IMG/VR virus record: IMGVR_UViG_3300048837_000288
Coordinates: 1 to 29,879 of that record
From: a virus
DNA length: 29,879 nt
Strand: one strand, 5' to 3'
Shown here: piece after piece, positions 11,084 through 20,439 of the stretch
How positions within the stretch are numbered: position 1 is the stretch's first letter
Layout of the letters: each line of letters begins with the position of its first letter
Made by a program: the position numbers and the translations under genes
Notes under the pieces: generated by a model
What the model was told of the DNA's origin: nothing
The model's input: only the letters and a program-made list of their open reading frames with translations
The model's database searches: none

Positions 11084-11140
11084 GGCGTGGTCTAGCCCGA
11101 CGGGGCGAAAAGACGGCACTCACACCGTCCTGACCACACC
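11084..11140 (+). ncRNA. Predicted three-way-junction RNA leader of the HNH gene
   Basis: The plus-strand RNA can fold into three helices. The outer stem pairs GG-c-GTGGTC (11084-11092) with GACCAC-a-CC (11132-11140), with one C/A mismatch. The first inner hairpin is GCCC/GGGC (11095-11098 with 11103-11106) around GACG. A GAAAA linker follows, then a second hairpin GACGG/CCGTC (11112-11116 with 11125-11129). The fold begins where transcription from the adjacent -10 would begin. Read on the minus strand, the last hairpin is followed by TTTTC and could act as a weak terminator after the capsid gene. I could not match it to a named RNA family; group I introns, hammerhead and HEARO cores were not found. 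Confidence 0.4.
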
Positions 11141-11154
11141 TCAAAACAGTGAGT

Positions 11155-11173: not shown

Positions 11174-11725
11174 ATGTACAATTACACTTGCCAGCACTGC
11201 GGCAAGCGCTTCGCCCACCGCCGACCGCACCACAGCCCATACGCACCACGTTTCTGTTCACCGCAGTGTGCATCCGCTTCAAGACGCAAGCACCCCGAAG
11301 CACACTGCGCCATTTGCGGCAACGTCTTTCAGACCACGAACATTCGCAAAACCTATTGCAGTCGAGCGTGTGTTTATGAGGCACATCGCCGTCATGGTCT
11401 TATCGAATGTGAGTGGTGCGGAAAGTCGTTCAAGCGATCCAATCGCGCCACGCGGTATTGCAGTGCGCGTTGTTATGGCGATAGCATGCTGAGTGCATTC
11501 CCCAGAAAGGGGAAAGAGTTCAGTAAGGCAGTTCGTCGCGCCATTAAAGAGCGCGACAACTACGCTTGCGTGGTTTGCGGTTCAACTCACCGTCTGGAAA
11601 TTGACCACATCGTACCGATTGCGCTTGGCGGAGACAATTCCATTGACAATGGACAAGCGCTATGCCACAAATGCCACAGGGCGAAAAGCCTTCGCCAGCG
11701 CAAGCAGGTACTTAGGGGTTATTAA
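11174..11725 (+). CDS. HNH homing-type endonuclease with three tandem zinc modules
   Basis: A 183-residue protein on the plus strand, opposite to all neighbouring virion genes. Residues 6-115 contain three tandem CxxC...CxxxC zinc modules (CQHC/CSPQC, CAIC/CSRAC, CEWC/CSARC), probably for DNA recognition. Residues about 127-175 form an HNH nuclease domain: CVVC, then EIDHIVPIALGGDNSIDNGQALCHKCH, with the DH dyad, Asn and the second zinc pair in place. It is thus an intact nuclease by motif. It ends 3 bases from the stop of the convergent capsid gene. The gene looks like a free-standing homing endonuclease beside the conserved capsid gene. GAGGTG serves as its RBS and is covered by a hairpin. 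Confidence 0.88.
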   Translation: MYNYTCQHCGKRFAHRRPHHSPYAPRFCSPQCASASRRKHPEAHCAICGNVFQTTNIRKTYCSRACVYEAHRRHGLIECEWCGKSFKRSNRATRYCSARCYGDSMLSAFPRKGKEFSKAVRRAIKERDNYACVVCGSTHRLEIDHIVPIALGGDNSIDNGQALCHKCHRAKSLRQRKQVLRGY

Positions 11726-16122: not shown

Positions 16123-17598
16123 TCATGCGTACGTGCCGATGCTGCTGCCGATCATCACGTCGTTACTTGCGTCTACTTGTTCATACGCGCCGCTAGCGGC
16201 GTCCACCTGATCGTCGTGCGCGCCGGCAGGAAACACCGCGAGTTCGTCGAGAAACGCGCGATTCCACGCGCCGCGCACCATCAGCACCTGCCCACCGTTC
16301 ACGCGCGACGCAAACGGCCCCGCCCGCGTGTATTTGTCGCCCTTCGGCGGCACCGCGTCGATGCGGTGGCCGGACAGACGCCGGTCGCGCAGCAGGAACG
16401 CCAGTTCAATCACGCCGGCCTTCTCCGCTTCGAGGCGTATGGACGTCTCAGCGCCGTCAATCAGCGCGTTTTGCACAATCGCTTCGTGAATGTCGGGCAG
16501 TTCCTTGCGGTCGCGCCACACGTCCAGCACGACAATGCGCCCGTCTTTCGCGCGTCCGAGTTTGACGCCCGCCGTGTAGTCGCTCGTCGTCTTTTTCGTC
16601 ACGGCCAAGTCATAGAAGCGCACCGTGCGCTCCAGTTCCGGCGCGTGATCGACAATCTCGATCTTCAGCGGGTCGAACAGGCCGCCGCCGCTTGGAAGCG
16701 GTCGCTGCTGATACAGGCCGGCAAAGGCGTATTCGCCCATGCGCGCGCGCCGTTCTTCCAGCACCGCCGTGCCGTAGCGTTCCGGCCACAGCGCTTCACC
16801 GAATGCGCGCCCTAGCGGGTCGCCTTCTTCCGCCAGCGCCGGCAGGCGTAACACCGTCCATTTGTCGGCGTCGTCTTCCAGCAGCCATCCGAGCAGATCG
16901 TGGGTATGCCAGCGCGTCATAATCAGGATGATCGCGCCGCCCGGCTCTTCCAGGCGTGTCAGCAGATCGTCGGCGTACCAGTCTTTCAGGCGCTGCCGGA
17001 ATGTTTCACTCTCGGCTTCCGCCCGTGACTTGATCGGGTCGTCGATCAAAATCAAATTCGCGCCGTGGCCAGTAATTCCGCCGCCGACGCCTGCCGCGAT
17101 CAGCCCGCCGCCGGCGGTGGTGTCCCACTCCAACGCGCTTGCGGTGTCGGCGGCGAGTTCCACGCCGGGGAACATAGCGCGGTAGCTGTCTGCCGCCAGT
17201 AAGTTGCGAATGTAGCGGCTGTTGCGCTTGGCAAGCGTCGAGCCATACGACGCCGCGATCATGCGCAGGTGCGGGTAACGTCCGATCAGCCACGCCGGAA
17301 ACAGCCGGCTAATCTCCAGCGTCTTTCCGTGTCGCGGCGGCATACTCACCGCCAGCAGCTTCGTGCCTTCCGCGCCGCCCGTCGCCACGTACCGCGCCAC
17401 CTGTTCGAGGTGCGCCGCAATGTACGTGTGGAAATGCTTCTCAATGTAGCTTGGGTAAATGCGCTGCTTGAAGGCGGAGAAGGGGACGCCGTTCGCGCCG
17501 GCGGGTGCTGCGCTGCTTTTCTCAAGCGCGCGGCGTAGCTTCTCCCGCATCAGCGATTGATACGCCGACGGACTCAAATAACTCGATTGCGAGATCAC
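16123..17598 (-). CDS. Terminase large subunit (ATPase and nuclease)
   Basis: A 491-residue DNA-packaging motor. The ATPase part has Walker A PPRHGKT (about 87-93), Walker B LILIDDP (about 182-188) and coupling motif MTRWHTHD. The C-terminal RNase H-like nuclease begins with RFYDLAVTKKTTSDYTAG, giving the first catalytic Asp, and later has RLEAEKAG and DDQVDAASGAYE with the last acidic residues. I start at GTG 17598, because AGGA is 8 bases upstream; TTG at 17604 would add two residues. The gene overlaps the 3' end of the small subunit gene by 77 bases. Full length, no disruption seen. Confidence 0.95.
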   Translation of the reverse strand: MISQSSYLSPSAYQSLMREKLRRALEKSSAAPAGANGVPFSAFKQRIYPSYIEKHFHTYIAAHLEQVARYVATGGAEGTKLLAVSMPPRHGKTLEISRLFPAWLIGRYPHLRMIAASYGSTLAKRNSRYIRNLLAADSYRAMFPGVELAADTASALEWDTTAGGGLIAAGVGGGITGHGANLILIDDPIKSRAEAESETFRQRLKDWYADDLLTRLEEPGGAIILIMTRWHTHDLLGWLLEDDADKWTVLRLPALAEEGDPLGRAFGEALWPERYGTAVLEERRARMGEYAFAGLYQQRPLPSGGGLFDPLKIEIVDHAPELERTVRFYDLAVTKKTTSDYTAGVKLGRAKDGRIVVLDVWRDRKELPDIHEAIVQNALIDGAETSIRLEAEKAGVIELAFLLRDRRLSGHRIDAVPPKGDKYTRAGPFASRVNGGQVLMVRGAWNRAFLDELAVFPAGAHDDQVDAASGAYEQVDASNDVMIGSSIGTYA

Positions 17599-18112
17599 GG
17601 CCAAATTCCTGTACCGCCACGTGGTAGTCTAGTTTGCCGTCCCGAATGAGTGACAGCGCTTCCGTGCGCCAGTCCTGATGCTCGACAATGCTTTTCTCGC
17701 TCCACTCTTCGCGGTAGCGGCGCTTCAGGTATTCAATGGCTGCGCGCCAGTCGCCCGGCGCAACTGTCACCGTCGTGCGCTCCGTCGCCTTCTTGTACTC
17801 GTAGGGTGAGCCGTACATGTTGACGCGCGTCTCGGTGTATACTTCTTTCGTCGTGCTGACGGTGCGCGTCGGCAGCATGGCGGAGTGCAGCGTTTCAATG
17901 GCTGTGACTTTCGCCGCCTCGCGCGCTCGTGTTACGGCGTCGAAAAACTCGACATAGCCGGCGTCACCTTCGCGCCCGCGTTCCAGCCACTTGTAAAACG
18001 TGCTGTCATCAACGCCACTCACAGCGCACGCATCGGCCACGGTCGCGCCTTTTTCAATACACGCGACGATCTTCGCTTGTGTTTTATTCGTCAGCTTGGA
18101 AGGGCGTGCCAT
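17522..18112 (-). CDS. Terminase small subunit
   Basis: A 196-residue DNA-recognition subunit of the packaging terminase. The N-terminal region (about 1-50) is a helix-turn-helix: KTQAKIVACIEKGATVADAC, then VSGVDDSTFYKWLERG, as in many phage small terminases. A central coiled-coil or oligomerisation helix follows (FFDAVTRAREAAKVTAIETL) and then WRAAIEYLKRRYREEW, a motif frequent in this family. The start at ATG 18112 has AGGA 6 bases upstream; the longer frame beginning at 18145 would intrude on the adjacent stem-loop region. The gene lies immediately after a structured intergenic RNA or packaging-site candidate. Confidence 0.88.
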   Translation of the reverse strand: MARPSKLTNKTQAKIVACIEKGATVADACAVSGVDDSTFYKWLERGREGDAGYVEFFDAVTRAREAAKVTAIETLHSAMLPTRTVSTTKEVYTETRVNMYGSPYEYKKATERTTVTVAPGDWRAAIEYLKRRYREEWSEKSIVEHQDWRTEALSLIRDGKLDYHVAVQEFGRDLAIELFESVGVSIADAGEATPRA

Positions 18113-18142
18113 AAGTTCCTGCGTCTCATGTGGGTAAAGTGA

Positions 18143-18429
18143 CACCGGCGGCGCGGCGCGTTTGAGTCCCGTACTCTGTCGCCGCTACTTCGGTGGCGGG
18201 TTGACCGCCGGTGAGCGCTACAAAAGGAAGGGGTACTGCGCGTGTGTCTGTAAGTTCGCAGTACCCCAAATGGCCGCGCGGCGTGAAGCCACTCGACCGG
18301 CCTGTAACGGCCAGCGCCCGCAAGGTATGTAGGGCGCACCCGCGTCAACATGGAAGCGGGAGGCGCAGCACAGTCGTCGTCGTTCTGGCAGCCCCGTGTT
18401 GTGAGGCCGAACTGTTGACGTGTGCGCCT
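18143..18429 (-). ncRNA. Highly structured leader, noncoding RNA or packaging site upstream of terminase
   Basis: This is the core of the 444-base intergenic gap and no credible protein frame occupies it. Perfect or near-perfect stems, plus-strand coordinates: 18361-18371 with 18420-18429 (10 bp, one bulge); inside it 18382-18389 with 18406-18412 (7 bp, one bulge); 18339-18343 with 18356-18360; 18314-18319 with 18332-18337; 18299-18302 with 18309-18312; 18230-18240 with 18257-18267 (11 bp); and 18143-18151 with 18205-18213 (9 bp) enclosing 18153-18158 with 18180-18185. CGTCAACA at 18343 is complementary to TGTTGACG at 18413, a possible pseudoknot. A minus-strand promoter places the RNA start at the first stem. 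It may be a regulatory leader, a free RNA of about 200 nt, or a terminase recognition site. No named family recognised. Confidence 0.5.
18221..18267 (-). terminator. 11-bp stem-loop with T-rich tail (attenuator-like)
   Basis: On the minus strand an exact 11-bp stem (18257-18267 with 18230-18240, loop of 16) is followed by TTCCTTTTG. This looks like an intrinsic terminator with an imperfect T-tract. If active, most transcripts from the promoter at 18429-18457 would end near 18221, giving an RNA of about 200 nt. Read-through would reach terminase, so it could be an attenuation point before the late genes. Confidence 0.45.
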
Positions 18430-18457
18430 TTCTACTTGATCTTACCACACTCGTCAA
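18429..18457 (-). promoter_or_regulatory. Sigma70-like promoter for the structured leader and late genes
   Basis: On the minus strand TTGACG (18452-18457, five of six consensus -35 bases) and TAGAAA (18429-18434, four of six -10 bases) are separated by exactly 17 bases. The expected start, about 18422, falls on the first bases of the first long stem. It is the only such pair I found upstream of the terminase genes, so it may drive the late operon. Confidence 0.5.
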
Positions 18458-18516
18458 TACCCCACACCAAACGTTGTGCGCGACTTACATTCAGGCTAGC
18501 ATCAATAGCAATTTTG

Positions 18517-18525
18517 TGCTACACT
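18517..18525 (+). promoter_or_regulatory. Extended -10 promoter candidate for the second HNH gene
   Basis: The plus strand reads TG-C-TACACT, an extended -10 element, 65 bases upstream of the HNH start at 18590. The surrounding DNA is AT-rich relative to neighbours. No good -35 box is present. The gene is read against its neighbours and needs its own promoter, which supports the site. AGGAG then lies 8 bases before the GTG start. Confidence 0.4.
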
Positions 18526-18589
18526 TGAGGGAAAGAAACGCCCCCGCGCTGCGTCAACAGCCGGAGGCACGAGCCACAGGAGCAAGCCC

Positions 18590-19306
18590 GTGACTACCCC
18601 TGATTCTAACACACTCACGAAAATCTGTACACATTGCGGCAAAGAAAAGCCTGCCACTCCGGAGTTCTTCGCGCGCCAAAGACAGGGCGGCAAGTATGGC
18701 CTGCGCGCCGACTGTAAAGAGTGTCACCACAAACGCGAGCGCACCAGAAATGAGTTACCTAGTGAAAAGGTCAAGCTACGACAACGCGCACGCGAAAGGG
18801 CCGCTCGCAATAAGGCTATGCACCGCGCCGATCCAACGCTATGTGAGCGCCCCGATGTATTAAAGCAGTGCTATACATGTAAGCAAGAGTATCCAAGCAC
18901 CACGAAGTTCTTTCATAGGAATGGAAGCGACCCCGACGGGCTTTCATCTGTGTGTAAGCAATGCATCAAGGCCCATCACAGGGAATACTACCGACGACCT
19001 GAAGTCAAGCGCCAAATGAAAGAGTATCAGCAGCGGCCCGATGTTGCGGACAAAATACGCGCTATCCACAACAACAGGCGCAATGCCCCCGGCTCATTCA
19101 CCGCCGCAGACGTTGAAGAAATTCGCAAGGCGCAGGGCAATCGGTGCTACATCTGCCACAAAAAGCTCAAGAAATTCCATGTCGATCACTTCATTCCGAT
19201 TGCACTTGGTGGCACGAACGATCCGGGCAATCTGCGCCTTGCCTGCCCGCGCTGCAACTTCAGCAAAAACAAGAAGCACCCGCACGCGCTCGGTATCCTA
19301 ATCTAA
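18590..19306 (+). CDS. HNH homing-type endonuclease with two zinc modules
   Basis: A 238-residue plus-strand protein between the structured gap and the convergent metallophosphoesterase gene, whose end it overlaps by 4 bases. The GTG start has AGGAG 8 bases upstream. Two similar zinc modules (about 13-48 CTHC/CKEC and about 94-130 CYTC/CKQC, each with an EFF/KFF centre) precede a basic helical linker and then an HNH domain: CYICHKK, HVDHFIPIALGGTNDPGNL and CPRCNFSKNKKH. All HNH landmarks are intact. GC content is visibly lower than in neighbours (27 of 60 bases in 18601-18660), suggesting recent arrival. A free-standing homing endonuclease beside terminase is a common phage arrangement. Confidence 0.88.
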   Translation: MTTPDSNTLTKICTHCGKEKPATPEFFARQRQGGKYGLRADCKECHHKRERTRNELPSEKVKLRQRARERAARNKAMHRADPTLCERPDVLKQCYTCKQEYPSTTKFFHRNGSDPDGLSSVCKQCIKAHHREYYRRPEVKRQMKEYQQRPDVADKIRAIHNNRRNAPGSFTAADVEEIRKAQGNRCYICHKKLKKFHVDHFIPIALGGTNDPGNLRLACPRCNFSKNKKHPHALGILI

Positions 19307-20439
19307 TCTCCCGCCATCGCCAGCGCGTCGGCGTCGATCTCTTGCAGCAGGATGCGCGCGCCAATCGTCGTCCGCAGCAGCCCGTCGTGGCGCTCGTACA
19401 CGACATTATGCAGCCACGCGCGCTTTGCCCGCATGTCCATCACCCCATACGCGAAGCCCTGCGTCCATGTCGAGGGTGCGCCGTCTTTGGCGTAGTGCGG
19501 ATCGACTTTGCACAGGCAGCCGCCAATCGCGCTTTGTACGGCGAAGTTCGGCCCGCGCGCCATGAACCAGTCCGGGCGGTGGCGGTGGCCCGACAGCACA
19601 TACGTCTGATACATGCGATCTTCGACCTGCGCCCGCGCGCCGTACTTTTGGAGTGTCTTCCGGTTGCCGTGCATCACCGTCAGCGGGCCAATCTGACACT
19701 CGCTTGTATGATCAGGCAGCATGACGCGGCCCTGGTAGCGCACCAGATCGTCAAATGCGCGCAGCACCGTCGTTCGCACCTGCGGCGCTGTCTCGTGTAA
19801 GAAGCGGACCAGCCGCGCGTCGTGATTGCCGAGAATGGCGCGCAGGCGTGCCTTCGGCGCAGCCTTTGTCATGCCGTCGATCAAGTCCCACCACGGCTTG
19901 CGCACGTTCTCCAAAATGTCTTCGCTGCTCAAGTCAGGATCGTGCGGGAAGTGGCTGATCTGCGCGAAATCGAAGCCGTCCGATAGGGTGACGATCATAT
20001 CCGGCGCGACGACTTCCATCGCCTGATACGTCAGCGCCAGCGCGTCGTCGTCCTGAAACGGCAGGTGCATATCACTCGCGTGGATCACCGTCACGTAATT
20101 CTGCCGCCGCAGGTCGCTCATGTGATCGTCCCACGCTTCATGGTCGAGCGACGGCGGGCGCGTGATCGTGTGCAGCGGGAACAACGGCGCGTGTTCGAGC
20201 AGCGCGTCGATCTCGTCTTCCACCACCGGCGCGGGCGCTGTCTCGCGTGCCTTGCGGACGTCCGCCTGCAGCGCGGCAGCGGCGGCGTGGCGTCGCTTGT
20301 AGCGATTGGCGCGCCCACGGACGGAATTGGCCGACAGCGGCGGTGTGAAGCGCGCGGCGATGTCGCGGCACGACAGGCCGGCAGCGCGGAGGTCGTAGAG
20401 TTCTTTGTCGGATGCGCGTGCGTTTGTGCGTCGTTTCAT
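19303..20439 (-). CDS. Metallophosphoesterase with N-terminal helix-turn-helix
   Basis: A 378-residue calcineurin-like phosphoesterase. Metal-binding landmarks are in order: SDMH (D123, H125), SDGFD (D154, D157; the usual GDxxD with Ser replacing Gly), GNHD (N205-D207), VMHGN (H257) and SGHRHRP (H285, H287). Residues about 7-50 look like a helix-turn-helix (DKELYDLRAAGLSCRDIAARF, then SANSVRGRANRYKRR), so it may bind DNA. Such fusions suggest a nuclease or phosphatase acting on nucleic acid, though nucleotide substrates are possible. It is the last gene of the replication operon and starts 3 bases after the gene before it. The substrate cannot be told from sequence. Confidence 0.85.
   Translation of the reverse strand: MKRRTNARASDKELYDLRAAGLSCRDIAARFTPPLSANSVRGRANRYKRRHAAAAALQADVRKARETAPAPVVEDEIDALLEHAPLFPLHTITRPPSLDHEAWDDHMSDLRRQNYVTVIHASDMHLPFQDDDALALTYQAMEVVAPDMIVTLSDGFDFAQISHFPHDPDLSSEDILENVRKPWWDLIDGMTKAAPKARLRAILGNHDARLVRFLHETAPQVRTTVLRAFDDLVRYQGRVMLPDHTSECQIGPLTVMHGNRKTLQKYGARAQVEDRMYQTYVLSGHRHRPDWFMARGPNFAVQSAIGGCLCKVDPHYAKDGAPSTWTQGFAYGVMDMRAKRAWLHNVVYERHDGLLRTTIGARILLQEIDADALAMAGD

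Follow-up and report, generated by a model that had tools for sequence, protein, structure and literature searches.

The late promoter region of phage lambda lies between the replication and regulation genes and the late genes, and consists of the promoter pR', the 6S RNA of about 200 nt and the terminator tR', after which the late genes begin. The late genes are controlled by the antiterminator Q (PMC7171158). Intrinsic terminators also stand ahead of the late genes of phage Xp10, and the phage factor P7 lets polymerase pass them at the late stage of infection (PMC6624301). Both systems are precedents for the timing of phage late genes by terminator bypass. In HK022, the RNA transcribed just downstream of the promoter suffices alone for terminator bypass, without a phage protein (PMC9378689). 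The pRNA, 174 nt long in phi29, is described as restricted to phi29-like phages (PMC11476376).

The whole stretch of DNA analysed here, a 29,879-base virus record referred to as the window, has nearly all of its convincing genes on the minus strand. Along that strand, genes for a RecT-like protein, methyltransferases, a RepO-like protein, DnaB and a metallophosphoesterase are followed by those for the small and large terminase subunits, an SPP1-type portal, and head and tail proteins. The interval 18143–18429 is the exact boundary between these replication and packaging halves. It belongs to a cassette with the order promoter, RNA with a 5' hairpin, intrinsic-type terminator and 78 nt leader, and the same order was found in three related phages, L205, L216 and L219. 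The RNA body has two unrelated versions, type A in the window and L216 (RNA of about 210 nt in total) and type B in L205 and L219 (about 280 nt), and both begin with the same hairpin and finish in a terminator at the same position. The cassette and its surroundings include the following features, numbered as in the window:

16123–17604, minus strand, large terminase subunit (Terminase_6N and Terminase_6C)
17522–18112, minus strand, small terminase subunit, whose gene opens the late operon with an ATG at 18112 (PHROG 4102, E 9e-24)
18142–18219, minus strand, conserved 78 nt leader 3' of the terminator, closed by CACCGGCGG/CCGCCGGTG, identical in the window, L205, L216 and L219
18220–18267, minus strand, intrinsic-type terminator with an 11 bp stem, a 16 nt loop and the tail TTCCTTTTGT, identical in L216
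18220–18432, minus strand, type A structured noncoding RNA of about 210 nt, terminator included (fold z −4.65, versus −1.97 on the opposite strand)
18373–18422, minus strand, conserved 5' domain, a hairpin with a 4 nt bulge, CGUC ... (G/U)UUC-GGCCUC-loop-GGGGYU-GCYN-GAA(C/A/G) ... ACG
18439–18457, minus strand, promoter core TTGACG-AGTGTGG-TAAGAT, likely with an extended −10 (TGGTAAGAT), a 19 nt block exactly common to the window and L205
18539–18569, plus strand, leader hairpin of the HNH gene with a GCUG-CGUCAA-CAGC core, a separate element next to the cassette (covariation in 20 phage leaders)
18590–19306, plus strand, HNH endonuclease gene, an insertion opposed to the operon direction (HNH_5, E 5e-12)
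19303–20439, minus strand, metallophosphoesterase, whose gene closes the early side and is common to the relatives, with DnaB and a RepO-like protein encoded upstream

Comparison with lambda revealed a similar arrangement of a constitutive-looking promoter, a short RNA of similar length, a terminator and the late genes, the promoter and terminator being predictions in the present case. However, no Q homologue was recognized here, and the cassette differs from pR'-6S-tR' in its dense structure, its conserved 5' hairpin, its two exchangeable bodies and its conserved 78 nt leader. As in Xp10, a terminator stands ahead of the late genes, but no P7-like protein was recognized, and in the cited parts of the Xp10 report P7 is not described as needing such an RNA element. 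The resemblance to HK022 put lies in a folded RNA element that is located soon after the promoter and ahead of terminators (PMC9378689). While put has two stem-loops, is about 70 nt long and is found in early transcripts, the cassette has one bulged hairpin of different sequence in what appears to be a late leader. The cassette has neither the two-stem-loop architecture nor the sequence of put, and Rfam returned no match.

The initial annotation had treated 18143–18429 as a single structured site with strong stems and no convincing protein gene. The main stems are present, including an 11 bp stem (18230–18240/18257–18267), a 9 bp stem (18143–18151/18205–18213) and further stems in the interval, and no reading frame is kept among the relatives. 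The structure was confirmed, but it is divided between an RNA–terminator unit (approximately 18220–18432) and a separate leader unit downstream of the terminator (18142–18219). On the minus strand, the interval folds with −133.5 kcal/mol (z −3.94) and none of 200 shuffles was as good, whereas z was only −1.31 on the plus strand. The z values listed above for the window RNA cover its predicted start to the terminator, and those of the other members are −3.81 (L216), −6.09 (L205) and −5.20 (L219). In all four RNAs, the transcript strand folds much better than dinucleotide shuffles, with z from −3.8 to −6.1, and the opposite strand has z values of −0.8 to −2.9. In the background set of 75 same-strand tiles of the window, each of 204 nt, the lowest z was −3.15. 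As the fold excess is strand-specific and exceeds that of all of the tiles, we assign the structure to a transcript that runs into the terminase genes.

When Rfam 15 was searched at the gathering score and at E ≤5, as the initial annotation had proposed, no family was found for the RNA; weak unrelated hits (mir-940 and HgcF) were far below threshold. This result is consistent with an undescribed RNA, and a tRNA/tmRNA search of the cassette RNA also found nothing. We conclude with high confidence that a structured, conserved and undescribed RNA is encoded on the minus strand at this interval. What appears to be new is a late leader RNA that Rfam lacks, from a phage lineage for which the collections searched contain no cultured members.

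A search with the small terminase protein returned one relative, L205, which is 92% identical. The promoter block and the 78 nt leader are kept between the window and L205, and the sequence between them is unalignable except for the 5' hairpin. The pattern of the 5' hairpin was found at seven viral loci, including the contig of L205 itself and the true members L216 and L219; the matches in L214, L215, L217 and L218 were rejected as chance pattern matches inside genes. A pattern search with the conserved leader returned the same phages and two coding matches only, with none in bacterial genomes, and relatives of the metallophosphoesterase yielded no additional phage with the cassette and none in bacterial genomes. 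Members whose contigs extend far enough have the same early genes upstream of the cassette.

Downstream, the large terminases of the four phages are of three kinds (99% identical, 48% identical, and one with no relation beyond the last residues), and the small terminase candidates of the three kinds gave no mutual BLASTP hits. L216 combines the type A body of the window with another promoter core and with a terminase region that contains a ParB/DUF4417 gene and a large terminase unrelated to that of the window; identity to the window returns to 96% in the portal. L219 has the type B body of L205 together with the other large terminase (48% identical) and an HNH gene. The window and L205 thus share one terminase (99%) and have two RNA bodies, while the window and L216 share one body and have unrelated terminases. 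Terminase genes directly follow the cassette in two of the four phages. These paired relatives are natural swaps of RNA, promoter and terminase, which allow regulation to be separated from packaging without experiment. In the contig G001 (43,264 bases; L225–L227), the first 127 bases and the last 127 both correspond to the window segment 14540–14666, inside the portal gene, and G001 is probably a complete phage genome assembled as a circle.

As RNA type and terminase type do not track, two packaging roles that the initial annotation had raised, a phi29 pRNA-like helper and the cos/pac site of the adjacent small terminase, are disfavoured. The cassette RNA shares with phi29 pRNA, a component of the packaging motor, its compact structure, a comparable size and a location upstream of packaging genes. 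It is, however, unlinked to the terminase type, since a 99% identical large terminase is found with two unrelated bodies and one body is found with two unrelated terminases. The large terminase of the window also retains its own recognizable RNase H-like nuclease domain (Terminase_6C), and a pRNA-like function is scarcely credible. A packaging start that is recognized by the small terminase whose gene adjoins it could explain the identity of the 78 nt leader in four phages, as might be seen in a protein-binding DNA site. However, the cassette is the same across three different terminases and so does not show specificity for a cognate terminase, its structure is strand-specific as in an RNA, and the end overlap of G001 is consistent with circular assembly and no end at the cassette. 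We therefore consider a cos/pac site highly unlikely.

Other folded stretches were seen near terminase genes. Those upstream of the large terminase gene in the terminase relatives L006, L041 and L052 are strongly folded and unrelated in sequence. The stretch in L006 (866–1105; 46% large terminase) is near a TTGACA promoter-like site upstream of the small terminase gene, and the L006 gap at 627–885 has a z of about −5. No terminator is visible in L006. In the type B RNA (L205 3600–3890 and L219 1925–2210), there is a tRNA-like four-way junction with a 7 bp acceptor-like stem, a T-loop-like UUCAAGU and a short 'anticodon' arm, which neither ARAGORN nor Rfam recognized.

A minus-strand promoter composed of TTGACG, a 17-base spacing and TAGAAA had been proposed. 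Alignment of the four phages upheld the prediction of a promoter on this strand, but TAGAAA was probably misassigned as the −10 box and TTGACG is doubtful as a −35. TAAGAT (18444–18439) is more likely to be the −10 box, because it aligns with the hexamers of the three relatives (TAAGAT/TATAAT/TAAGAT/TAGGAT, at equal distance from the RNA in the four phages) and because TAGAAA would place the start inside the first stem. The predicted RNA start is near 18432. TTGACG is only 7 nt upstream of TAAGAT and may instead be an activator or operator site. In all four phages, GTCAAC hexamers cluster around the cassette, with approximately four or five per approximately 500 bases, and there are 21 in the whole 30 kb window. 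The cluster spans 18200–18560 in the window and the matching regions of L205, L216 and L219, often as GYGTCAACRY upstream of the promoter, and is a possible operator for a phage regulator.

The 5' hairpin is the sole part that both RNA types have in common in sequence and structure. It is closed by an outer CGUC/GACG stem, which is of the CGUC/GGCG type in L219. A model of the 5' domain (R2) found credible matches only in these four phages when 750 kb was scanned, and none in 24 terminase-related virus records. The initial annotation had suggested that related contigs be tested for covariation. On the transcript strand, substitutions between members of one RNA type lie outside stems or preserve pairing more often than randomly placed ones do, with joint P values of 0.055, 0.044, 0.048 and 0.002 in four comparisons that are modest and come from four sequences, and the corresponding values for the opposite strand are 0.45, 0.21, 0.11 and 0.34. 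In the 5' domain, 12/12 pairs are kept in 4/4 phages, with one pair double-changed (GC/UA/UG) and one GC/GU, but covariation among four relatives is thin and this one double-sided change was often matched by shuffles. A pseudoknot formed by CGTCAACA/TGTTGACG, which had also been put forward, is not conserved, as the second half is altered in L216 without a compensating change.

The 11 bp stem with a T-rich tail had been predicted to release an RNA of about 200 nt. Both the stem and the tail are there, and the RNA would be about 210 nt, but the terminator is imperfect and, with its 16 nt loop and modest T tail, was not called by a consensus terminator scan. At the same place, L205 has a different, canonical terminator (10 bp, 4 nt loop, TTTTTG). 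The terminator arms showed no strong alternative pairing, and classical attenuation by terminator/antiterminator switching is thus not indicated.

While the 78 nt leader is identical in the four phages, the genes downstream of it differ. Neighbouring early genes diverge by up to about 25% among the same phages. Either this block is very strongly constrained or it marks a recombination joint. If the entire region were a mosaic joint, short identical stretches would seed module exchange and the stems would be GC-rich by-products. The breakpoints at the start of the RNA, at its body and behind the leader would fit, as would the HNH homing-type endonuclease gene that adjoins in the window. However, four sequences with two unrelated bodies lie approximately 4–6 sd beyond dinucleotide shuffles, and on one strand only, and other tiles of this GC-rich genome do not, making this explanation very improbable.

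As four phages share the position, promoter, terminator and leader, and not the terminase, it seems rather likely that the cassette is a late-operon leader RNA that works by termination and read-through. The initial annotation had offered a noncoding RNA and a late-gene attenuator or antitermination leader among its readings, and these are supported by the placement at the early/late boundary, the strand-specific fold and the promoter–terminator frame in four phages. The boundary position, element order, strand-specific structure and terminase independence are features of the sequences themselves, and we infer transcription, termination, antitermination and timing of the cassette.

Host RNA polymerase would start at the minus-strand promoter near 18432, where initiation could be constitutive or late-activated, and would by default stop at the terminator near 18220 after making a compact RNA of approximately 210 nt. 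This default termination would prevent expression of the terminase, portal, capsid and tail genes. At the late stage of infection, RNA polymerase would be made termination-resistant and would proceed into the 78 nt leader and the late genes. The 5' hairpin is a natural candidate for the RNA signal, and might serve as a put- or nut-like recruitment element. Alternatively or additionally, a phage factor might work at the promoter in the manner of lambda Q. Pfam and PHROG scans of the upstream window genes recognized no protein resembling Q, N or LoaP, although a diverged Q could escape. The body between the hairpin and the terminator would be exchangeable, with at least two versions. With a fixed hairpin and two unrelated bodies, read-through control and the body's own role become directly testable.

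The strongest rival to the late-leader reading, and one that may hold together with it, is a stand-alone phage small RNA with trans-acting effects on RNAs or proteins of the host or the phage, with the proximity to late genes and read-through being incidental. Such an RNA would have its own promoter and terminator and a dense fold, as found in both types, and an exchangeable body would be expected where targets or partners vary among hosts or competitors. However, the late genes have no other evident promoter within the 78 nt leader, a stand-alone RNA would not need this leader to be perfectly conserved, and the cassette is at the early/late boundary in four phages. We regard a free small RNA as possible rather than probable. 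Unlikely, in our view, is a combination in which the fixed 5' hairpin would confer RNA-only, put-like antitermination at a late operon and the exchangeable body would be a trans effector RNA, released early and later fused to the late mRNA.

A second RNA element is found next to the late-leader cassette. The window contains two HNH endonuclease genes opposed to the operon direction, 11174–11725 and 18590–19306, and locus comparison revealed that the site of the latter is without an HNH gene in L205, L216 and L219. When the interval and its flanks were used to query known phage records with BLASTN, only 18541–18582 matched, which is outside the interval, and the matches were in unrelated phages. 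This segment overlaps the HNH leader hairpin, and a search with the core pattern located this hairpin in front of small genes on many viral contigs. The R1 model matched the window hairpin with an E value of 5e-8, the window sequence being one of its seeds. Across 20 distinct leaders, 93.6% of cells in the outer stem plus core are paired, compared with ≤50% in slid controls, and five pairs are double-changed (24 cells). The compensatory changes are in the outer stem; the inner core, having been imposed by the search pattern, is no evidence by itself.

Pfam identified 16 of the directly downstream genes as HNH or endonuclease VII genes of several families, including the one in the window, though this share is a biased estimate as the first ten downstream genes were picked for their HNH look. 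The other genes encode one Rha/Ash protein and a few other small proteins. A cultured example is Propionibacterium phage Anatole, where the hairpin is at 453–475 and the HNH frame has a possible start about 30 bases past the hairpin core, compared with the annotated start at 772. Rfam has no family for the hairpin at the gathering score, and none for the window copy at E ≤5. In several leaders, a second hairpin has the ribosome-binding site in its loop, which is suggestive, though individually these are mostly not significant. For homing endonucleases of T4-like phages, concealment of the ribosome-binding site by RNA structure is known, but the parts of that report cited here describe no shared sequence motif of the HNH-hairpin kind (PMC2988022). 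As a covarying element of many unrelated phages that is absent from Rfam, the HNH leader hairpin may match the late-leader RNA in importance.

At the motif sites in L086 and L197, the same GCTGCGTCAACAGC loop is located within apparent intrinsic terminators. In both the window (11085–11151, plus strand) and L219 (1756–1822, minus strand), an RNA of the Rfam family int-alpA (RF02996) precedes an HNH gene by 22 nt, and int-alpA may be a leader of HNH endonuclease genes.
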